Source: Ignavibacteria bacterium (GTDB lineage: Bacteria > Bacteroidota > Ignavibacteria > Tepidaquicellales > Tepidaquicellaceae). Taken from it: 64,000 nucleotides of DNA. The stretch spans positions 1 through 64,000 of the forward strand of contig JAQTLX010000016.1 of assembly GCA_028714695.1 (NCBI GenBank), written 5' to 3'. Under the pieces are notes generated by a model. The model was not told where the DNA came from, did not search any database, and saw nothing but the letters and a program-made list of their open reading frames with translations. Both the position numbers and the translations under genes were made by a program. Shown here piece by piece: positions 51,589 to 64,000 of this stretch (the stretch's first letter is position 1; each line of letters starts with the position of its first letter).

Positions 51589-51864
51589 TTATTTTCCTTT
51601 CTTCTTTTTTTCCTTCGGTTTGCTTTCTATTATTTCTGCCGAACTTTCTATAAGTGATTCGGATTTATCTGTTTTTGATTTTTTTTTATAATCTGTTTGA
51701 TAAAATCCAGTACCTTTGAAAATCAATCCTGCAGGCATACTGACCATTTTCTTCAACGTATTGTGTCCGCATTTGGGGCATAAAGTTGCCGGTTTGTCTT
51801 TCATTGATTGGAAAATTTCCATCTCTTCGCCGCAGTTTTCGCATCTATAATCGTATGTTGGCAT
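51589..51864 (-). CDS. FmdB-family zinc-ribbon protein
   Basis: 91 residues. The N-terminal MPTYDYRCENCGEEMEIFQS and LCPKCGH form a CxxC...CxxC zinc ribbon of the FmdB/regulator family, followed by a Ser/Lys/Glu-rich tail. Role unknown; FmdB proteins are small regulatory or chaperone-like zinc ribbons. It starts 12 bases after the tubulin-like gene on the same strand, so the two are probably one unit. Confidence 0.86.
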   Translation of the reverse strand: MPTYDYRCENCGEEMEIFQSMKDKPATLCPKCGHNTLKKMVSMPAGLIFKGTGFYQTDYKKKSKTDKSESLIESSAEIIESKPKEKKKKGK

Positions 51865-51876
51865 ATAAGTTAATGT

Positions 51877-54800
51877 TTATAATAGATTTAATAATCTTTT
51901 TTTTGCTGTTTCATATTCATCTTGTGTAATCAGATTCTCATCAAGAGCACGTTTGAGTTTCTGAAGTTCTTCAAGATTGAATGACGTTTCTTTTTTATCC
52001 TTGACGATATTGGTTTGCTTAACTTCCGTTTCGCCTTCGAGCAGTTGTTTTACATTTAAAACACGTTTTTTCCCGTCACCGCAGAGGAACGAAAAATTGT
52101 CGAGGTGATTCTTCAGAGATTTAACTTTAGCAATATATTCGTCTTTTGAATCGGCGGATATCAGATTTTCGATTTCTCTGGCAAGTTCTCTGACAATTTT
52201 ATACTGATAAGTTTCGGTTTTTTTCTTCGCTTCGCCTGAGATTTCAATTTCATCAAGTTTATAAATATTTTCGTAATAATATTCGAATATAAGAAGCAAT
52301 TCCGCAAAAAGTTTTTTCTCAATAAAAATCTTTTTAAGGCTTTCGGCTTCTTTTAGAATTTTAATTCTCAGTGATTCCGAACTTTCTTCTTCAAAGAGTC
52401 TGTTGATTAATCTCGCTTCAATTCCCAATTGTTCGGTTCTTTTGACTGTGATACCTTCCTGCAATGTATATTTATAAACGGCTTTACGTTCGCCGGCAGC
52501 GGGATTGTATTCGGTGTCAATTTCAAACAGTCCGAATATAAGTCCGAGAATGAATGCTTTATAAGATTCATCATAACGTTTTCTTTCTTCGTTTGTAAGA
52601 GGAATGATATCGTTGTATATGAAATAATTCTTATTGTTATGAAGGTCTATATTCGAGTTCTTCGAGAAATTCTTGTAATAGTTCTTCATCTCTTCGGAAA
52701 TTGTGTAAGAATAGAACAACGGGAATCCTGCCCATTCAGTATAGAAAGTTATGGACGAGTTATCCGCCGAATCCTTGAATTCTATTGCGTTGCCAGCAAT
52801 CGAAGTTATCAGGTTTTTGAATTTACCGAAAGATGAAGTATTCGTGCGGATACCTATATAGAATTTTTTTGCGGAATCGTCAAGTTTGAATCTGCCCGGG
52901 ACTTCATTTATTCTAAGCCAGGGGAATGACTGATTAAGCATTCCTCGTATTTTAGATTCGCTGCGCAGGATTTCTTTCTCAAAAAGAATTTCTGTAATAT
53001 TATAATCTTCGCGAATTCCTTCAAACTGTTTCCTTGCGAATTTCAGCATATTTCCTTCGACTATTTTAGCGTCGCTGTCTTTCAGTATATTTACGATATC
53101 CGTTACATCCGAGGCATTAAGTTCTTTAAGCAATTCGAATGCAAGCACCTTAATTCTGTCCGTTGCACTTTGACCGCTGCCTATGTATCTGAGATAATAT
53201 TCATTCTTTACATCGTCCGGTTCGTAGATATGCAAATTGAAACTTGTGTCCTGTTTCTGTATGAAATATTCGTATTTGCGTTTGAAATTTTCTTTAAGAA
53301 TGCCGAGGTTACCTGTTAATTTATTTAAATCGCTTATTAATCCGGTAAATAAAATTTTACCGTCATCTGTTTTCGTGCCTCTTTCAATGAGGGCGAGTAT
53401 TCTCTGGCAGATTTCTTTTGCATAATATCTTGAGTGGAGTTTAATCAATGCGTTATAATATTCATCAAGCACCTTTACAAGTTTATCCAGAGTGCCTTCC
53501 ATTGCGGCTTTGCGCATGATATTAATTTTAGACCTTGATTCGTCTTCTCTAAGGTCCTGCATTCTGCTCTTCACTTCCGCTTCCAGTCTTGAAACAAGTA
53601 TCTGAAGGTCCTTTATTTCCTTTTCGAATGCTGGAATGTAGTCGAAGTTTCCGTTCGTGAGAATAAACTGCATTCTTCTTAAAAGACTCATTGCATAGAA
53701 AACGCCCCGCGTGGAATCGTTAATTAGAGAATTGATTTTTCTTTCAAGGTTTCCGGTAATATTTCTGTCTCTGTCTCCTATTAATTTATTTATCAGATTC
53801 GACCTGTTTGCATAAATCTGCGAATAATATAATCCTTTGCGTGTAATATCGTTGTCGTCTCTGAAGTTCGTATCGAATTTCTGTTTCTCGGATGTTATAA
53901 ACGAAGACCATTTGTCGCCTCGTCTGCCGCTAACAAGTTCATTCTTTAAATTATTAAGGAATGTTTTTATCTGTGATTGTATGGATGATTTTTCACCCAT
54001 ACTGTAAAGAGAATTGAGAAGTTGGTGTTTTGAATTCGATTCAATAATTCCGAGTTCGGGAAGCATTTCTTCGCGCAAATATTCATCTATGCTGCTTTGA
54101 GAGCCTTCTGCGAATGTCAGATAATAGTTTATGATGTCTTCGCATAACTTATATGCGCAAGACAAAATAATCCTGTCGACAGGAATGGATATAGTTGATT
54201 GACCGAGAGTAGAATATTTTCTTGAGAATGTATTCTCGGTTACTGTATTATCATCCGGATAAAGCCTCTGTTTATACTGAACAAGATTTACTCTAACGCC
54301 TCTTTTGTAATTCGCGAAATCGGAATTTGAGAAATCCTGAAAAATAGTATCAGCAATCATTTTATATATATCGCGGTTGCTTTGTTCCGACAACGAAAGA
54401 TTCTTGCAGTTTTCTCCGTCTATAAGATAAACGTCGTCATATACACCGGGCTGGAACTTATGAGGCTCGTTCTTTTTCCAGGATACAGTGAACGGGTTTT
54501 TAAGATTGTAATATTCAAGTTCAGTCAGTGCTGCATATCCGTTAGCAAATACGCGTTCTTTACCGTATCCCTGATAAATTTTCGGAAGTACAATATAACT
54601 CGATGAAACCGCCTGATTTCTAAAAAGATGCCTGATAAGGAAACCGAAATCAATGAACATGCCCGAACCTGTGCCGCCGCTGATTGACGTGATTACGTAC
54701 ACATTAATCTTTTCTGTATTTACGTTTTTAATGTTATGTTTGTCTTTTACGATATTAATCGAGCGGGAATCAGTGATAGTGGATTTCGCAGAACTTAATT

Positions 54801-55278
54801 TATAAACTATTTCGTCAAAATTATGGTAAAAGGCTAAGCGTGCAGCAGGTCTGATTTGACCGGCGCCTGTATTCATCGTGCCCAGTTTGCCTATTTCGCC
54901 TGTAACATTAAGCCATTCTTTTATATGCGGGATATCGTTTATTCTGTGAATGTAGTCAGATGGATTAACCGGATTAAATACTTTTTCGGACGGCTTAAAA
55001 TCAATTTCATTGATAAGATAATCCCTTTCGCGCGCAATGCCGCTTTCTTCAGCGGGCGCATTATCAGTATCGATATAGAGATACGAAGTGATAGGGAAAT
55101 CATCGAGTGAGCCGTATTTTTCAACGAATTGTCTTCTTATTCTGAGAAGGACCTCTTTACCCGTACCGCCGAGTCCGATAAGAATCGTAGGCATAAATTC
55201 CTGAGTTTTTAGTTCAAGGGAGCCTTTTTCTACCGTGACCGGCTCTTTTTGTTCCGGTAATTTGAATGGATCTGCCAT
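51877..55278 (-). CDS. Tubulin-superfamily protein with SHOCT-like C-terminus
   Basis: 1133 residues, no signal peptide. The N-terminal 300 residues carry Tubulin_2/FtsZ-like nucleotide motifs: ILIGLGGTGKEV (Gly35-Gly40), the Gly-rich NTGAGQIRPAARLAF (136-150) and the tubulin signature SISGGTGSGMFID (198-210). A long helical region (about 400-720) follows. The last 34 residues (EELQKLKRALDENLITQDEY, then ETAKKRLLNLL) match the SHOCT short C-terminal domain. These large tubulin-like proteins form GTP-dependent polymers in some bacteria, but their cellular role is largely undescribed. It pairs with the FmdB gene and faces a 760-base spacer and a defence island. No vWA or kinase partner is adjacent. 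Confidence 0.85.
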   Translation of the reverse strand: MADPFKLPEQKEPVTVEKGSLELKTQEFMPTILIGLGGTGKEVLLRIRRQFVEKYGSLDDFPITSYLYIDTDNAPAEESGIARERDYLINEIDFKPSEKVFNPVNPSDYIHRINDIPHIKEWLNVTGEIGKLGTMNTGAGQIRPAARLAFYHNFDEIVYKLSSAKSTITDSRSINIVKDKHNIKNVNTEKINVYVITSISGGTGSGMFIDFGFLIRHLFRNQAVSSSYIVLPKIYQGYGKERVFANGYAALTELEYYNLKNPFTVSWKKNEPHKFQPGVYDDVYLIDGENCKNLSLSEQSNRDIYKMIADTIFQDFSNSDFANYKRGVRVNLVQYKQRLYPDDNTVTENTFSRKYSTLGQSTISIPVDRIILSCAYKLCEDIINYYLTFAEGSQSSIDEYLREEMLPELGIIESNSKHQLLNSLYSMGEKSSIQSQIKTFLNNLKNELVSGRRGDKWSSFITSEKQKFDTNFRDDNDITRKGLYYSQIYANRSNLINKLIGDRDRNITGNLERKINSLINDSTRGVFYAMSLLRRMQFILTNGNFDYIPAFEKEIKDLQILVSRLEAEVKSRMQDLREDESRSKINIMRKAAMEGTLDKLVKVLDEYYNALIKLHSRYYAKEICQRILALIERGTKTDDGKILFTGLISDLNKLTGNLGILKENFKRKYEYFIQKQDTSFNLHIYEPDDVKNEYYLRYIGSGQSATDRIKVLAFELLKELNASDVTDIVNILKDSDAKIVEGNMLKFARKQFEGIREDYNITEILFEKEILRSESKIRGMLNQSFPWLRINEVPGRFKLDDSAKKFYIGIRTNTSSFGKFKNLITSIAGNAIEFKDSADNSSITFYTEWAGFPLFYSYTISEEMKNYYKNFSKNSNIDLHNNKNYFIYNDIIPLTNEERKRYDESYKAFILGLIFGLFEIDTEYNPAAGERKAVYKYTLQEGITVKRTEQLGIEARLINRLFEEESSESLRIKILKEAESLKKIFIEKKLFAELLLIFEYYYENIYKLDEIEISGEAKKKTETYQYKIVRELAREIENLISADSKDEYIAKVKSLKNHLDNFSFLCGDGKKRVLNVKQLLEGETEVKQTNIVKDKKETSFNLEELQKLKRALDENLITQDEYETAKKRLLNLL

Positions 55279-55451
55279 AATTTAATATACGTAAATTAAT
55301 GTAAAATAGTCATAACAGATTTTAATATATAGTGAAAACAGAGTAACAGTATTTGTAAAAAATAAAAAGTAGTTTAAATTATTATATTAAAATTTGCATT
55401 AATAAATCGACTATTTCGAAAAATCCCACATAAAAAAAAGTTTAGTAATTC

Positions 55452-55572
55452 ATGACACCATGGGGTCAAAAAAATGGTACATGTGGTACAAAAAGTGTCA
55501 TATTTTTTTTATTTGTATTGATAAAACAATGTTTTAAAAAATAAAAAATCAAAGATGGCTCAAAAAGTGTCA
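55452..55572. repeat. Short direct and inverted repeats in the 55.3-56.0 kb spacer
   Basis: The spacer 55279-56038 holds no supported gene. CAAAAAGTGTCA occurs twice, at 55489-55500 and 55561-55572, and its TGACAC complement occurs at 55453-55458. These look like binding sites shared by the divergent tubulin-like and hsdM units, or element debris. Confidence 0.4.
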
Positions 55573-55621
55573 AATCGGTTCGAAAAATCAACATAAGTCA
55601 TTGAAAATATGGAATTTCTTT

Positions 55622-55662
55622 AATGAGCCATAGGGCTCATTAAGGGCTCATTAAGGGTTCAT
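55622..55662. repeat. Hairpin plus three 11-base tandem units
   Basis: AATGAGCC-ATAG-GGCTCATT (55622-55641) is a perfect 8-base hairpin. GGGCTCATTAA then occurs at 55633-55643 and 55644-55654, with a decayed third copy GGGTTCAT at 55655-55662. It may be an operator array, or a recombination scar at the edge of the island. Confidence 0.5.
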
Positions 55663-56038
55663 CTCCGGTACTAAAATAAAGACAAATTCGAAAACCATAC
55701 GGGGCAAGCGTAAGCCGAAACACAAGAGCGCAAGAAAATCCATAATTTTCAAGAGCGAGTATAGCCATAATAATATATGGTAATGATAAAAATTTAGCAA
55801 GGCAAAAAAATATACCATTATAATTACGAACACAAATTCATGGATGAGATTATATTCATTTTTTGAATACAAATAAAAGAATCGAACATGAAAGGAAAGC
55901 ATAAATATGAAATTCTTATCAATACAATAAATGATTAATAATTATTATATTAAGTTTAGTGTATTTTGTATTATTAACAAATACATTTAGCCTCAAAAAC
56001 TTTAAAAATATCAATCAAAAAAAGGATTACTGATTAAT

Positions 56039-58624
56039 ATGTCGAATAAGAAACTGTCATTATCCCGATTAGAAACATTTCTTGAAGAAGCGTGTGAAAG
56101 TCTCCGCGGAAATATGGATGCGTCAGAATATAAAGAATATATTATAGCCATGTTATTCCTTAAGCGGGTAAATGACCAGTTTGAGAAACAAAGGAAAATA
56201 AGGGCGAAAAATCTCACAGAAAGAAGGGGTGTATCCGAGCCTGAACTGGAATATGAATTAGAAATACCAAATGCGCCTGAATACGATTTCTTTGTACCTA
56301 AAGAAGCAAGATGGGTAAACATAAAGGATTTGCAGGATGAAATAGGGGATTGCCTGACAAAAGCATTCGCGTCATTAGAAGACAATAATATAGAGATACT
56401 TGAAGGAGTTCTAAAATCTATAGATTTTAATAAAACGATAGGGAAGAACAGCAAGAAGATATCTGATGAAGACTTAAGGGAATTAATCAGGGAATTCAAC
56501 AGAATAGACCTTACTGATGACAATCTCGAGTTTCCGGATTTAATGGGAGCGGCTTATGAATTTCTCATTAAGTATTTCGCGGACAGCGCGGGTAAAAAGG
56601 GAGGAGAATTTTACACACCAAACGAAGTTGTCAGACTGCTCGTAAACATACTGGAGCCTGAAGTGAATTCCGAGATATACGATCCAACCGTAGGAAGCGG
56701 CGGCATGTTAATAGAGAGCAAGAACTACGTTGAGAGCAGATACGGTGATTCGAGGAATATCACACTTTACGGACAGGAAAAGAACGGAACGACATGGAGT
56801 TTATGCAAAATGAACATGATATTTCATAATATATATGACGCGAAGATTGAGAACGCTGATACGTTGATGTTTCCAAAACATGTTCATGAAGGTGAAATCA
56901 GGACTTTTGATATTGTAATTGCAAACCCGCCATTCTCACAGAATTACAGCACGGACGGAATGAAATATAAGGACAGATTCAATTTCTGGATGCCATACAA
57001 ATCGAAGGCGGATTTCATGTTCGTACAGCACATGACGGCAAGCATACACAACGAGGGAAGGCTGGCAGTGATAATGCCTCACGGAGTATTATTCCGCGGA
57101 GGGGAAGAAAAGAAATTCAGGCAATATTTAATTGATAAAGGTTATTTGGAGGCTATTGTAGGTCTCCCGCCGGCTTTATTTTACGGTACCGGAATACCTG
57201 CAAGCATAATTATTATAAACAAGAAGAATGCCGGCAAGAGGGATAAAGTGCTTTTCATAAATGCGGACAGAGAATATAAAGAAGGAAAGGTTCAGAATAA
57301 ACTCCGCCCAGAAGATATTGAAAAAATAAGTTATACATACAGGCACAAAAAAGTTATAGATAAATACAGCAGGCTCGTAAGCAAAGAAGAACTTGAAGCG
57401 GAAGAATACAATTTGAACATAAGAAGATACGTCGATAACGCTCCGCCGCCTGAACCACACGATGTTCATGCTCATTTAAAGGGCGGAGTGCCGATAAGTG
57501 AAGTTAATTCATTGAAAAATTATTTTGATTCATATCCGGGGCTGGATCGGAAAATATTCAAACCATTAAAAAGAGGTTACTTATCTTTTCTGAAAAGTAT
57601 ATCGCAAAAAGAAGACATTAAACAACTCATAGACGAAAGTCCAGAAATAAAAGTTACGCAAGAACAATACACTTCTCAATTATCCACATGGTGGAAAAAA
57701 GTTGTTAAGGATTTTGAAACACTTCCGGAGAATAATAATATATTCGCGCTTTACCGTAAGTTTTCGGAAAGTTTTTCAAAATCAATTTCGGAATTAAAGA
57801 CCGGACAAAAAACAGTACTTGATGACTATCAGAGCAGAGGCGCGCTTGCCTCATACTGGAGTATATTGAATTATGATTTAAAAAGCGTGGCGGCGAGCGG
57901 ATGGAACGCGGAACTTATACCTGATGACGAAATACTTGAAAGCCAGTACCCGGAAGTATTGAAAGAATTAAGAGAAAACGAATCGAGGAAAGAAGAAATC
58001 GAAGCGTTATTCAAAGAAGTAAACGAACTTGAAGACGGTGTCTGGACAGAAGAAGAATACGAAGTATGGCCAAAAGACGAATTAAAAGAGCACAAAGAAT
58101 CAATACGAGCATTGAAAGGAGAGAGGAAAGAAGCGGATAAAGAATATAAGAATATATTAAAACGCATTAATGCTGTTGAGAAAGCAGTAAAGAAAAATCC
58201 GGAACTCTCAAAAGAAATACCTGTATTAATGAGCGAATCTGAAAAATATGCATCGGAAATTACCAGATTAGACGGAATGATTTCCTCGGATGGATCGCGA
58301 ATAGCGAAGCACACAGAACTCGAAGAAGAACTGAAACGATGCAGGAAAGTAATAAAAGAGATTAAGGATAAAAAAGAAAACTTAGTAGAACAGGCGCGAT
58401 TGTTAATTCCGCCTGAAGAGGCAAAAGAACTCATACTTAAACGCTGGAACTCAGTTCTCCACGAGACAATCAACGGATATATTCAAACGCATCAACGCCA
58501 ATTATTGAAGGCTATTGAGAATATTTGGGACAAATATAACACGCCTCTGCATATAATCTTATCAGAAAGAGAAAAAGAAACCCAAACCTTAAATGAATTT
58601 TTGAAGGAATTGGGATATGAGTGA
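56039..58624 (+). CDS. hsdM: Type I restriction-modification DNA methyltransferase HsdM
   Basis: 861 residues. The HsdM N-terminal helical domain ([33 protein letters not shown]) precedes an N6-adenine methylase with DPTVGSGGM (215-223, SAM site) and NPPF (296-299, catalytic). After about residue 490 there is a long helical and coiled-coil extension, much beyond the usual about 500-residue HsdM; such long forms are known. It transfers methyl from SAM to adenine at a site chosen by HsdS. It overlaps hsdS by 8 bases and is the first gene of the island. Confidence 0.93.
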
Positions 58625-59141
58625 GTGGAAAGAATACGTTCTAGAAGATTTAGTTTATGTTGACAAAGAACAATTAAATAACACAACTGATGATGACTTT
58701 TCGTTTTATTACATTGATATTAGTTCTGTTTCAACAAACAAAATTCAGTTTCCCGATTCTCAAATCTCATTTAAAGAGTCACCATCTAGAGCAAGAAAAG
58801 TATTACATGACGGTGATATATTAATGGCAACAGTAAGACCAAACTTAAAAGCATTTGCTAGGTTTAATAAACCGGCAAATAGAAACTATATTGCATCAAC
58901 TGGTTTTGCAGTACTTAGCAAAAATGAGAAAGCTGATATAGATTTCATCTATCATTCTTTATTTTCAAATGTTGTTGAAAAGCAAATAGAGGCTCTAGTT
59001 GTAGGCTCAAATTATCCGGCTTTAAATATAAGTGATATTCGAAAATTAAAAATACATTCCCCCTCATTAACAACTCAAAGCAAAATAGCCCGTATTCTAT
59101 CAACTTGTGATTTAGTCATTGAAAAACTCAAATTGCGATAG
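58617..59141 (+). CDS. hsdS: HsdS specificity subunit, N-terminal half (frameshifted)
   Basis: 174 residues forming the first target-recognition domain ([42 protein letters not shown]). The frame ends at TAG (59139-59141) after EKLKLR. In the next frame the sequence from 59126 reads [20 protein letters not shown], the normal central helix, so one base is missing from the A5 run at 59122-59126 (an A6 would restore a single gene of about 425 codons to 59893). HsdS selects the DNA site for methylation and cleavage. In this state only a half-specificity subunit would be made. Confidence 0.85.
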
Positions 59142-59167
59142 ACAAATACGAATCAATAAAGCAAGGA

Positions 59168-59893
59168 ATGCTTCACGATTTGTTTACGCGCGGAGTTGAT
59201 ATAAAAACCGGAAAACTCCGACAAAAGTATGAAGATGCACCATATTTATATAAAGACAGCAAACTTGGTTGGATTCCGAAAGAGTGGGAAACAAGAAGCA
59301 TTATTGAAACAACTTATATTAAGGGACGAATCGGCTGGGAAGGACTTAGGGCGGATGAATTTATTGAGGAAGGACCTTATCTGATTACGGGGACTGATAT
59401 ATACAACGGCAAAATTAACTGGTCCAAATCATATCATATATCGGAAACCCGATTTAATCGTTCACCAAATATACACGTTATTGAAAATGATATTCTTATT
59501 ACAAAAGACGGAACAATCGGAAAAACAGCATTTGTTGAGAATTGTCCTAAAAAAGCTATCCTTAATAGCGGACTTTTCTTACTAAGATGTAAAGATGAAT
59601 CATATATCAATAAATATTTATTCTATATTCTAAATTCATTTTATTTCGATGATTTTATAAGAACATCGCTTGGGGGTTCAACAATCGTTCATTTATACCA
59701 AAGATCATTTGAAAAATTTCGATTTCCTGTACCACTTATATCGGAGCAAGAAATTATTATACAAAGAATTAATTCTATAAATAAAAGAATAGATGAGGAG
59801 AATTCTTATTTAATTAAGATTCAGCAATTAAAGTCAGGTCTGATGACGGATTTGTTGGGTGGAAAAACAAAAATAAACTCCAAATATCTGTAA
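59168..59893 (+). CDS. hsdS: HsdS specificity subunit, C-terminal half (frameshifted)
   Basis: 241 residues. It begins inside the central conserved region (MLHDLFTRGVDIKTGKLRQK) and contains the second target-recognition domain (LGWIPKEWE, EEGPYLITGTDIYNGKINW, ITKDGTIGKTAF, GGSTIVHLYQRSFEKF) and the C-terminal helix (LKSGLMTDLLGGK). The true open frame extends upstream to about 59126. With the first half it makes one HsdS broken by a one-base deletion. It could be translated separately from the ATG at 59168, as half-HsdS proteins sometimes dimerise. The next gene starts 20 bases later. Confidence 0.82.
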   Translation: MLHDLFTRGVDIKTGKLRQKYEDAPYLYKDSKLGWIPKEWETRSIIETTYIKGRIGWEGLRADEFIEEGPYLITGTDIYNGKINWSKSYHISETRFNRSPNIHVIENDILITKDGTIGKTAFVENCPKKAILNSGLFLLRCKDESYINKYLFYILNSFYFDDFIRTSLGGSTIVHLYQRSFEKFRFPVPLISEQEIIIQRINSINKRIDEENSYLIKIQQLKSGLMTDLLGGKTKINSKYL

Positions 59894-59913
59894 AAATAAT
59901 TATTTAATTCTAT

Positions 59914-61989
59914 ATGGCCGAACTCGAAACATTAAAATCCTTATTCAAAGATTCAATTTTTAGAATTCCTGATTATCAAAGAGGATTTGCTTGGAAAGTC
60001 GAACAATTAGAAGATTTTTGGTTTGATTTAATAAATTTAGAAAATGACAGAAGTCATTATACAGGTGTAATAACTCTTAAAAAAATAAAATCATCATCAC
60101 AGCCAAAAAATGCTAACGAGAGGTGGCTTATTGATAACGGATATAAAATGTATCACATAATCGATGGACAACAACGACTAACAACAAGTATAATTTTGAT
60201 CCAAGCAATAATTGAAATAGTAAAAGAATATTATAAAAACAAAGATAGCGATGAAATAATATTTTGCGATCAAAAGCTGACCGATATAATTAAGAATTTC
60301 CTTAGTGAAAAATCTTTAAAACATAATTTAATTACTTACAAATTCGGTTATATTGAAGATAATCCTTCATACGAGTATTTTCGGCATAACATATTAAATG
60401 AACCTTATTCTGGAACAATACAAGAGACCTTTTATACATTAAATTTACAAAACGCAAAAAATTATTTTAAAAAACAACTGAATTCATTAATAGGAAACAA
60501 ATCAATAGAAAGCATAGAAACTGAATACAAAAAATTAATTACACGGTTTTTATTCAATCCATATGAAATTCCTTCCGATTTTGACGAATTTCTTGCATTC
60601 GAAACAATGAATAACAGAGGGAAAAAATTATCAAATCTAGAATTACTAAAGAATAGGCTTATTTACTTGGTTACATTATATAATGATAAAGAATTATCGG
60701 TTGCCGGAAAAAAAGAATTACGGGATTCCATAAATGGCACATGGAAAGAAGTGTATATGCAGTTAGGAAAGAACAAAACACATCCCTTAAATGATGATGA
60801 ATTTTTAAGAGCGCATTGGATAATGTTCTTTATATATAGCAGGAAGAGAGGCGATGATTATGTAAAATATTTATTAAACAACAGGTTTTCTTTAAATTCA
60901 GTTTTAAAAAAGAAACCTGTAAAGGTAAATTTAGAAAAAATAGAAGAAGTCTCAGAAGAAGAAATAGAGAAAGACGAATTAGAGAGGGAAGAAAATAGCA
61001 ATCTTGTACTAAAGGCAGAATTATCTCCAAATGAATTGAAAAAGTACGTTGGATCTATGAAAGAATCTGCAAAACATTGGTATAACTCATGGTTTCCTCT
61101 GCAGAATACAGATATTGATCCCGAAATTGCATTATGGCTAGATAAATTGAATAGACTACCAATATTTTATTTTCGTCCTATGGTAATGAGTTTATTGCTT
61201 AATAAGAAATTATCGACAGAAGAAAAGGTTATAATACTTAAGAAAATCGAAAGATATCTTTTTATTACTTTCAGATTGAACAAAACACAAAGCACGAATG
61301 GAAGCAGCGAGTTTTATAATGCTGCAAGAAGACTATATAATAATGAACTTAATTATGAAAGTCTTATTGAATTATTAGATATTAATACAAACTATTTTTT
61401 CGATAAAAATGGATTTAAATTTAATGGATTTAAGCAATTAATAGCAGACCGTTTCAATGGTAAGCGCAAAGATGGATTTTATGGGTGGCCGGCAATCTAT
61501 TATTTCCTATACGAATATGAATTGTTTAAAATGAAAACAAGAGGAACTCCTAAAATTGATTGGAGATTATTTATAAAATCCGAAAAAGATAAATATTCAA
61601 TAGAGCATATTTATCCACAGGAATCCTCAAAAAAATACTGGCAAAAAAGATTTAATAAATTTACCGACGAAAAAAAGAATATATTAGCAAACAGCTTGGG
61701 GAATCTTATTCCATTATCTATGTCAATTAATTCAAGTTTACAAAATGATGGATTTGACGATAAGAAAAAAACAATAAGAAATGCTAAAAATGAAATTATT
61801 AGAAATGGCTACGAAAACGGCTCATATTCAGAGATTGAAATAAGCAGAGAAACAGAATGGACAGCAGATATTATTTTAAATAGAGGATTAATTCTCCTTA
61901 AATTTTTAGAAACCCGATGGGATGTAAATTTAGGGACAAAAAAAGATAAAATTGAATTACTTAATCTTCAGTTTCTAATTAAGAAATAA
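59914..61989 (+). CDS. DUF262/DUF1524 GmrSD-like nuclease
   Basis: 691 residues. The N-terminal DUF262 (ParB/GmrS-like) domain has RIPDYQRGFAW (17-27) and HIIDGQQRLTTS (Asp84-Arg88). The C-terminal DUF1524 HNH-type domain has SIEHIYPQ (His565) and the later LGNLIPLSMSINSSL. Relatives are modification-dependent type IV restriction enzymes of the GmrSD kind, acting on glucosylated or otherwise modified phage DNA. It lies between hsdS and the TA pair in the same strand, so it may act as an extra phage-defence layer to the type I system, or as a regulator of it. Confidence 0.87.
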   Translation: MAELETLKSLFKDSIFRIPDYQRGFAWKVEQLEDFWFDLINLENDRSHYTGVITLKKIKSSSQPKNANERWLIDNGYKMYHIIDGQQRLTTSIILIQAIIEIVKEYYKNKDSDEIIFCDQKLTDIIKNFLSEKSLKHNLITYKFGYIEDNPSYEYFRHNILNEPYSGTIQETFYTLNLQNAKNYFKKQLNSLIGNKSIESIETEYKKLITRFLFNPYEIPSDFDEFLAFETMNNRGKKLSNLELLKNRLIYLVTLYNDKELSVAGKKELRDSINGTWKEVYMQLGKNKTHPLNDDEFLRAHWIMFFIYSRKRGDDYVKYLLNNRFSLNSVLKKKPVKVNLEKIEEVSEEEIEKDELEREENSNLVLKAELSPNELKKYVGSMKESAKHWYNSWFPLQNTDIDPEIALWLDKLNRLPIFYFRPMVMSLLLNKKLSTEEKVIILKKIERYLFITFRLNKTQSTNGSSEFYNAARRLYNNELNYESLIELLDINTNYFFDKNGFKFNGFKQLIADRFNGKRKDGFYGWPAIYYFLYEYELFKMKTRGTPKIDWRLFIKSEKDKYSIEHIYPQESSKKYWQKRFNKFTDEKKNILANSLGNLIPLSMSINSSLQNDGFDDKKKTIRNAKNEIIRNGYENGSYSEIEISRETEWTADIILNRGLILLKFLETRWDVNLGTKKDKIELLNLQFLIKK

Positions 61990-62086
61990 ATTATTCCAAA
62001 GATATTAGTTGTTTGATTGAAGATGTCTTTTGTTAGAATGTCTGAAAGAAGTATTTCAGGCAGATTTCTAAAAACTCCTTACATAA

Positions 62087-62113
62087 GTCGCAAATATTTG
62101 CTATATTTGCGAC
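62087..62113. promoter_or_regulatory. Operator-like inverted repeat before the AbiE-type pair
   Basis: GTCGCAAATA (62087-62096), 7-base spacer, TATTTGCGAC (62104-62113): 10 perfect pairs, 21 bases before the antitoxin start. The right arm overlaps TATATTTG (62102-62109), which fits the Bacteroidota TAnnTTTG box. This matches autorepression by an AbiEi-like protein. Confidence 0.6.
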
Positions 62114-62133
62114 AAAGATAAGGCATAAAACCA

Positions 62134-62736
62134 ATGCAAAATACAGAAAAACAGATACTTAGAAAAATTAAAAAAGCCAAGAGGGGTGCGCTATTTTTTG
62201 TTGAGAGTTTCCAGAATATAGGAAATCTAAAAACTGTCAGTAAAACACTTGAAAGACTTACGAAAAAAGGCGAAATATCAAGAGTCGCGGCAGGAATCTA
62301 TAATAGACCTATTATTGATCCTATTATCGGCAAAGTCACACCGGGAATCGACGAAATTGCCAAAGCGATAGCAAAAAGAGACAGGGCAAGAATTGTTCCT
62401 ACCGGGGTATATGCATTAAATAAACTCGGACTTTCCACACAAGTGCCGATGAATGTAGTATTTTTCACGGATGGTTCGGCACGGAAAGTAAAAATAAATA
62501 AAAGAACAATCAATTTTAAGAAGACCACGCCCAAAAATGTATTAGCGGCGGGAGAAATAAGCCGACTCGCGATACAGGCGTTAAGGTCAATCGGAGAAAA
62601 AAACGTTACGGAAGAGCAAATAAAAAAGATTCAAACATTGCTTGAGAAGGAAAAGAAAACCAAACTCGAACATGATATCAGGCTTGCGCCGGTATGGATT
62701 AAAAAAATATTTAAACCTGTATTGGAAAATAAATGA
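62134..62736 (+). CDS. AbiEi-like antitoxin (DUF6088 type)
   Basis: 200 residues. The N-terminal winged-helix (about 1-70, LKTVSKTLERLTKKGEISRV, then AAGIYNRP) and the C-terminal body (about 80-200) match the AbiEi/DUF6088 antitoxins, which repress their own promoter. An inverted repeat lies just upstream. Its TGA overlaps the ATG of the toxin (62733-62736), the usual coupling of type IV toxin-antitoxin pairs. It should neutralise the nucleotidyltransferase toxin by an indirect mechanism. Confidence 0.85.
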   Translation: MQNTEKQILRKIKKAKRGALFFVESFQNIGNLKTVSKTLERLTKKGEISRVAAGIYNRPIIDPIIGKVTPGIDEIAKAIAKRDRARIVPTGVYALNKLGLSTQVPMNVVFFTDGSARKVKINKRTINFKKTTPKNVLAAGEISRLAIQALRSIGEKNVTEEQIKKIQTLLEKEKKTKLEHDIRLAPVWIKKIFKPVLENK

Positions 62737-63740
62737 ATAAGAAATCATTGGAAGAGTGGTTTAAATTGCCGGATGAAACAAGGCTAAGTATTTTCAAAGA
62801 TATCAGCGGAAAAACCGGTTTACCGGAATCCGCCATTGAAAAAGACTGGTGGGCAGTAAGAACACTTGAAATTATATTTGAAACAAAAGTTGCGGATAAA
62901 TTAGTCTTCAAAGGCGGAACATCTTTAAGCAAGGCATGGGGATTAATTAAAAGATTTTCGGAAGATATTGATTTGGCACTTGATAAGAACTTTTTAGGAT
63001 TTGAAGGCAATCTATCACGTACACAGGTTGATAGATTGAGGGAAAAATCATTCGCATATCTCACAGGAGAATTCTATGATATACTGAAAGACGCTTTCAA
63101 GGAATCAGGATTTATAGGTGTTGAACTATCATTGAAGGAATCTACATCAAGTGACCAGGACCCAATTCAAATTAATATTAAATACAAAAGTATAACTGAA
63201 AAATACGAATATATAAATCCGAGAGTGCAGATCGAAATTGGAAGCAGGTCATTAATAGAGCCATACACGAAAAAAGCGATATGTTCTTTTGTGGGAGAGT
63301 ATTATAAGGGCAGAGAATTTGCTGACGAAAACATTATGATTTCGACGGTTAATCCCGAAAGAACCTTTTTAGAAAAAATATTTCTTATACACGAAGAGTT
63401 TCAACAGGCACATGATAAAATAAAAACGGATAGACTCAGCAGGCATTTTTACGATATCGAAAAGTTAATTGATACGGAATATGCAGAAACCGCATTTAAA
63501 GACAAAGAACTATATAATCATATTGTCGAACACAGGAAAACGATAGCATTTATAAGGGGTATTGACTATTCGAATCATACTCCCGCTAAGATTAATATTG
63601 TGCCACCAAAACAATATTTATCTCAATTGGAGAAAGATTACAAAGAAATGAAGGAAAGTATGATATATGGAAATTCACCATCGTTCGAGGATTTAATAGA
63701 TAGAATAAAAAAGTTAAACAGTCGAATTAATAATTTATAG
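62733..63740 (+). CDS. AbiEii/AbiGii-family nucleotidyltransferase toxin
   Basis: 335 residues. The pol-beta nucleotidyltransferase signature is FKGGTSLSKAWG (59-70) with Asp78-x-Asp80 in FSEDIDLAL, as in AbiEii toxins. These modify tRNA 3' ends or other targets and cause abortive infection when freed from AbiEi. The remaining conserved elements (NPERTFLEKIFLIHEEF, DRLSRHFYDIEKL) are present, so it looks intact. It ends one base before the ATG of hsdR. Confidence 0.88.
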   Translation: MNKKSLEEWFKLPDETRLSIFKDISGKTGLPESAIEKDWWAVRTLEIIFETKVADKLVFKGGTSLSKAWGLIKRFSEDIDLALDKNFLGFEGNLSRTQVDRLREKSFAYLTGEFYDILKDAFKESGFIGVELSLKESTSSDQDPIQINIKYKSITEKYEYINPRVQIEIGSRSLIEPYTKKAICSFVGEYYKGREFADENIMISTVNPERTFLEKIFLIHEEFQQAHDKIKTDRLSRHFYDIEKLIDTEYAETAFKDKELYNHIVEHRKTIAFIRGIDYSNHTPAKINIVPPKQYLSQLEKDYKEMKESMIYGNSPSFEDLIDRIKKLNSRINNL

Positions 63741-63741
63741 T

Positions 63742-64000
63742 ATGCCTGAATACAAAAATGTAGAAAAGCCGTTTCTTGAAAAACTCCAATTATTAGGCTG
63801 GCAGGTAATTGACCAAGGAGTAGGAATTCCGCAAGACGCATCGAAAAGTCTTCGTAATAATTTCAAGGAAGTTGTATTGCCGGATATTTTTAAAGAAACG
63901 ATTCGTAAAATCAATTTAACTGAAGACGGAAAAGAATGGCTGACCGACATACAACTTGACAGACTGCTTTTCGAAATACAGAATTTTCGAGGCAAGACAC
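63742..64000 (+). CDS. hsdR: Type I restriction enzyme HsdR (5' part, cut by window edge)
   Basis: 86 codons are visible, reading YKNVEKPFLEKLQLLGWQVI and later LPDIFKETIRKINLTEDGKE, the typical start of HsdR (N-terminal nuclease domain). The frame is open to the window end. HsdR supplies ATP-driven translocation and cleavage. It begins one base after the AbiEii-like gene. Confidence 0.85.
   Translation, partial: MPEYKNVEKPFLEKLQLLGWQVIDQGVGIPQDASKSLRNNFKEVVLPDIFKETIRKINLTEDGKEWLTDIQLDRLLFEIQNFRGKT

Follow-up and report, generated by a model that had tools for sequence, protein, structure and literature searches.

The protein that we designate TUB, encoded in a 64,000-nucleotide stretch of an Ignavibacteria genome (the window), is a genuine member of the Tubulin_2 family, and while its kind is known, its setting is new. 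With about as much belief as doubt, we consider it to be a GTP-binding, probably polymerising tubulin-fold protein that works at the inner membrane together with a small protein of three transmembrane (TM) segments, within a fatty-acid-synthesis operon. The observations on which this explanation is built are a predicted tubulin fold, conserved nucleotide loops, the operon itself, and the joint presence and absence of the genes for TUB and the three-TM protein among related genomes. The FmdB zinc-ribbon gene next to TUB and the neighbouring defence island are judged to lie outside the TUB system.

The Tubulin_2 profile (PF13809) matched the N-terminus of TUB with 240.5 bits against a curated cut-off of 27, covering positions 1-355 of its 356. 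At the C-terminus, the SHOCT profile (PF09851) was matched over its full length, slightly below its cut-off, and the tail motif LKxLKxALDEGLISxEEYexAKkxFL was found in 16/16 aligned proteins of the host family, i.e., the family to which the genome of the window belongs. These 16 proteins are 61–89% identical to the TUB of the window, and the GLGGTGKE and GGTGSG motifs are invariant among them. The preliminary description had recognised a tubulin-superfamily protein with N-terminal glycine motifs, a long helical middle and a SHOCT tail, and these features are supported by the profile matches (for SHOCT, slightly below the cut-off), the alignment and the structural model described below. Purifying selection on TUB was indicated by a dN of 0.010 and a dS of 0.68 from the one pair, of close relatives, in which dS was not saturated. 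Besides an ordinary FtsZ gene, of which there is one, the genome contains a single Tubulin_2 gene. Promoter-like sites were not more frequent than in shuffled sequence. The features are collected in Table 1.

Table 1. Positions of TUB, its domains and loops, and the genes and insert discussed in the text. Positions are those of the window unless prefixed with C16.
Feature	Position	Strand	Remarks
FmdB zinc-ribbon gene	51589..51864	-	91 aa; 12 bases behind TUB; judged outside the system
TUB (Tubulin_2 / FtsZl1 family protein)	51877..55278	-	1133 aa, ATG start; Pfam PF13809, E 4e-71
SHOCT tail of TUB	51889..51972	-	residues 1103-1130; 26.4 bits vs cut-off 27
Mostly helical middle of TUB	51979..54129	-	residues 384-1100; long helices 548-674; from the model
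Tubulin_2 domain of TUB	54130..55185	-	residues 32-383; predicted tubulin fold about 28-319
NSDFANYKR, tentative T7-like loop	54301..54327	-	residues 318-326; by eye vs the genome's own FtsZ
GGTGSG, T4 signature loop	54661..54678	-	residues 201-206; invariant in 16 family proteins
GLGGTGKE, T1-type nucleotide loop	55153..55176	-	residues 35-42; invariant in 16 family proteins
Defence island (part)	55348..64000	.	13 kb insert upstream of TUB, continues to C16:68361; outside the system
SDR (enoyl-reductase-like), this genome	C16:70084-70881		outside the window
Small three-TM membrane protein, this genome	C16:70887-71390		outside the window

The structure of TUB was predicted with AlphaFold2 from 17 sequences. 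The full model was of modest confidence (mean pLDDT 60, pTM 0.41). Residues 367-750 were nearly all helix with pLDDT mostly between 70 and 90, and residues 223-360, the expected place of helix H7 and of the later loops, had pLDDT below 50. A separate model of residues 24-412 was poorer (pLDDT 47) because the relatives in the alignment were too similar. Foldseek alone gave nothing under E 0.001 for either model; its first rows for the full model were helical proteins placed on the helical middle with rmsd near 40, and were discarded as chance. When the Foldseek candidates were re-aligned to the model, the best 50 PDB chains consisted of CetZ, tubulin or FtsZ only, with VIA-align Z of 10–13, and the top match was CetZ 3zid (Z 13.1, rmsd 3.0 over 158 residues, model range 28-312). 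The model thus supports a tubulin fold for the GTPase domain, from residue 28 to about 319, as the preliminary description had anticipated from the motifs, and makes filament formation by TUB plausible.

Sequence comparison reached less far. A PDB search with the single TUB protein found nothing credible, and one with the N-terminal alignment found weak collinear stretches of CetZ 3zid only (E 1.6). With hhalign, TUB and the genome's own FtsZ could be aligned at single loops only, GGTGSG falling on GGGTGTG. By eye, NSDFANYKR is similar to NVDFADVR, the T7 loop in the same FtsZ, and lies in a part of the model where confidence is low, and hhalign did not confirm this placement; SDFAxxKRS also occurs in Azospirillum and Cylindrospermopsis proteins. 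Loops T6 to T7 of TUB are therefore insecurely placed, and NSDFANYKR is regarded as a tentative lead. In the by-eye alignment, Asn323 stands at the second Asp of the FtsZ T7 loop; if that alignment is right, one catalytic Asp is replaced by Asn, and hydrolysis by TUB may therefore be weak. TUB resembles FtsZ, CetZ and tubulin in the predicted fold of residues 28-319 and in the T1 and T4 loops, but differs in its long inserts, its helical extension and its uncertain T7 loop, and no C-terminal domain of the tubulin or FtsZ kind was recognised in it.

TUB was found in 23 of the 29 host-family genomes, this genome included, and in 0/15 genomes of the other family of the order. In the rest of the class, about 6 of ~360 genomes had a match, and so did 13 of 395 genomes sampled across the phylum. 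The named relatives come from metagenome-assembled genomes of Ignavibacteria, and the TUB tree agrees broadly with the housekeeping tree. The gene order common to the host-family relatives is efp-accB-accC-small membrane protein-SDR-TUB-fmdB, in which the SDR matches an enoyl-ACP-reductase-like Pfam family; this synteny is partly a matter of shared ancestry. The gap between the SDR gene and TUB is 16–138 bases in 14 of 18 relatives, and in the remaining four the spacing is 0.8–3.4 kb, with an MFS gene inside in two. In the present genome, an MFS gene and the defence island separate TUB from the genes for the SDR and the small membrane protein.

The small membrane protein, encoded two genes upstream of TUB in the family operon, has about 170 residues. 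From alignment and hydropathy, its N-terminus carries a hydrophobic segment, which a variable linker separates from three TM segments; a near-invariant basic loop, tFHKxxStRQs, joins the first two TM segments. Pfam gave no match for it, and its profile found no convincing relative at the Tubulin_2 loci of other families. In whole-genome searches of the 29 host-family genomes, TUB and the three-TM protein were both present in 22 and both absent in five, with a mismatch in two. Both mismatches concern genomes affected at contig ends: in one (G022) the contig breaks within TUB, and in the other (G001) the assembly probably does not include the TUB stretch, because fmdB was likewise not found and the contig terminates downstream of the MFS gene. 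Of the five genomes with neither gene, two are little informative, namely G006 (77% complete) and G017, from which the entire operon is missing. In the other three, G018, G026 and G028, TUB and the three-TM gene are both gone from the locus, while fmdB and the SDR gene that lies between the two are kept; the gaps from accC to the SDR gene are 34, 9 and 17 bases, respectively. A rooted tree of seven proteins, with other families as the outgroup, placed G019, which has both genes, between G018 and G026/G028 with support of 96–100; the order of the deepest host-family branches in this tree was weakly supported (64–79). Two joint losses are therefore the simplest history that these sequences suggest. 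Joint loss could stem from a single recombination event in which the operon segment was replaced; alternatively, G019 could have regained the genes after a loss. The lineages that lost TUB have small genomes. TUB and the three-TM protein are thus genetically coupled, and the three-TM protein is a better candidate partner of TUB than FmdB.

The same data bear on a different, rather unlikely explanation, in which TUB works by itself or with partners that are not linked to it and the three-TM protein is a passenger of the operon segment that was lost by recombination. Both genes lie in one operon segment, so that a single replacement from a donor without TUB could remove both, and canonical FtsZl1 partners, e.g., vWA proteins, could be encoded elsewhere in the genome. 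However, the SDR gene between them is kept every time, the joint loss is seen in two lineages, and wherever the locus is intact in a host-family genome, neither gene occurs without the other.

In the preliminary description, TUB and the zinc-ribbon gene were suggested as a possible GTP-dependent filament or membrane-remodelling system with its own small regulator. We consider a dedicated two-gene, GTP-dependent filament system with FmdB as the regulator of TUB improbable. The placement had been described correctly: the gene follows TUB on the same strand at exactly the distance given, and its product matches the FmdB profiles TIGR02605 (E 1.7e-20, 72.8 bits vs a cut-off of 31.3) and Zn_ribbon_8 (E 1.4e-16) and carries two CxxC pairs. 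The pairing also recurred, since fmdB stands directly behind TUB in 21 of 21 host-family loci, mostly with gaps of less than 40 bases. Genes with CxxC near the N-terminus of the product lie next downstream of several Tubulin_2 genes in other families as well (L142:5339-6916, L143:12619-13263, L145:5891-6883 and L146:7491-7709), the four proteins being otherwise dissimilar and the count being without a control. Against a regulatory pair, fmdB directly follows the SDR gene in three host-family genomes without TUB, G018, G026 and G028 (gaps of 26, 18 and 23 bases), and FmdB is encoded in 11/11 sampled genomes of other families, all of which are without TUB. FmdB is independent of TUB and is a bystander, an ordinary member of the TIGR02605 family with no difference seen; as a dedicated partner it was rejected, because it stays where TUB is gone.

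That TUB belongs to the adjoining anti-phage defence island, or takes part in a phage response as had been thought conceivable, is very improbable: the type I restriction-modification, GmrSD-like, DUF6088 and AbiEii genes do adjoin TUB, on the opposite strand, but the island is missing at this site in the nearest two congeners, G002 and G003, TUB sits in a housekeeping operon in the other relatives, and TUB had no PADLOC match, no relative in phage records and none on viral contigs. DNA similarity to G002 ends at window position 55348 and restarts at C16:68361, and the island is therefore a 13 kb insertion adjoining TUB. Inside this restriction-modification island, the GmrSD-like gene and then the DUF6088 and AbiEii genes occupy window positions 59914-63740 (+). 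The hsdS gene is split into two ORFs, at 58617-59141 and 59168-59893 of the window (+), whose products match adjacent parts of one specificity subunit; this may reflect a broken gene, a phase-variable gene or an assembly error.

The FtsZl1 family (Pfam Tubulin_2) was described in 2010 by Makarova and Koonin, who placed it, as a proposal, at the heart of a membrane-remodelling system that contains vWA proteins; many of its members, though not all, are in an operon with a vWA-domain protein (PMC2875224). No characterised Tubulin_2 protein was found in the literature searched. TUB is like the FtsZl1 proteins in its N-terminal FtsZ/tubulin-like GTPase domain, its long helical middle, its size class of about 1000–1200 residues and its presence beside an ordinary FtsZ. 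In contrast to them, genes for vWA, kinase, GTPase or OmpA proteins were absent from the recurrent neighbours of the 21 host-family TUB loci, and TUB has a SHOCT tail, an operon with accBC and the enoyl-reductase-like SDR, and the co-inherited three-TM protein. Like other SHOCT-tailed proteins, TUB ends in a short bihelical tail, but here the tail is fused to a Tubulin_2 protein, and SHOCT was absent from 8/8 other Tubulin_2 proteins scanned. Two of these, L145:7032-10658 and L157:7956-11600, carry GYF_2 at the C-terminus, in the place of SHOCT in the Ignavibacteria proteins, which hints at exchangeable adaptor tails. TM-protein neighbours occurred at 10/10 Tubulin_2 loci of other families, a count without a control. 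A vWA protein was confirmed at one of the other-family loci (L147) and recognised by eye at three more (L148, L227 and L228), and on a Thermus oshimai plasmid (L158:6727-12736) genes annotated as TROVE-domain, vWA-domain and tubulin-like stand in a row. At L227:2266-8208 and L228:1797-7648, the gene directly behind the Tubulin_2 gene encodes another long protein, with a weak Tubulin_2 match in L228 (38 bits) and no family match in L227; these pairs are possibly tandem diverged paralogues.

From the fold, the loops and the coupling, we infer that TUB binds and hydrolyses GTP, polymerises, contacts the three-TM protein directly and has a role at the membrane. The three-TM protein would dock TUB on the membrane, perhaps with the help of the SHOCT tail. 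For SHOCT-like domains, a function in holding proteins at the inner leaflet has been predicted (PMC11237479), and a role of SHOCT in oligomerisation was tested and unsupported (PMC3581485). GTP binding would favour head-to-tail assembly through the tubulin fold, and the long helical arm would connect this assembly with the envelope, whereby the membrane would be shaped or organised. Co-transcription with the fatty-acid-synthesis genes would couple the amount of TUB to membrane synthesis.

Within the tubulin superfamily, Tubulin_2 proteins belong to the most diverged members; a study in 2023 omitted them from FtsZ/tubulin trees as too diverged (PMC9871819). In place of the FmdB and defence leads, the three-TM protein now stands as a concrete candidate partner. 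A further reading, which we consider rather less likely than not, is that TUB joins with the three-TM protein in a two-component, membrane-anchored filament system of the tubulin type in one Ignavibacteria family, apart from the vWA-based FtsZl1 operons, which would be made together with the fatty-acid-synthesis enzymes and may shape or organise the inner membrane. A minimal Tubulin_2 protein with one co-inherited membrane protein would offer a small, testable system for the polymerisation and membrane action of these proteins.
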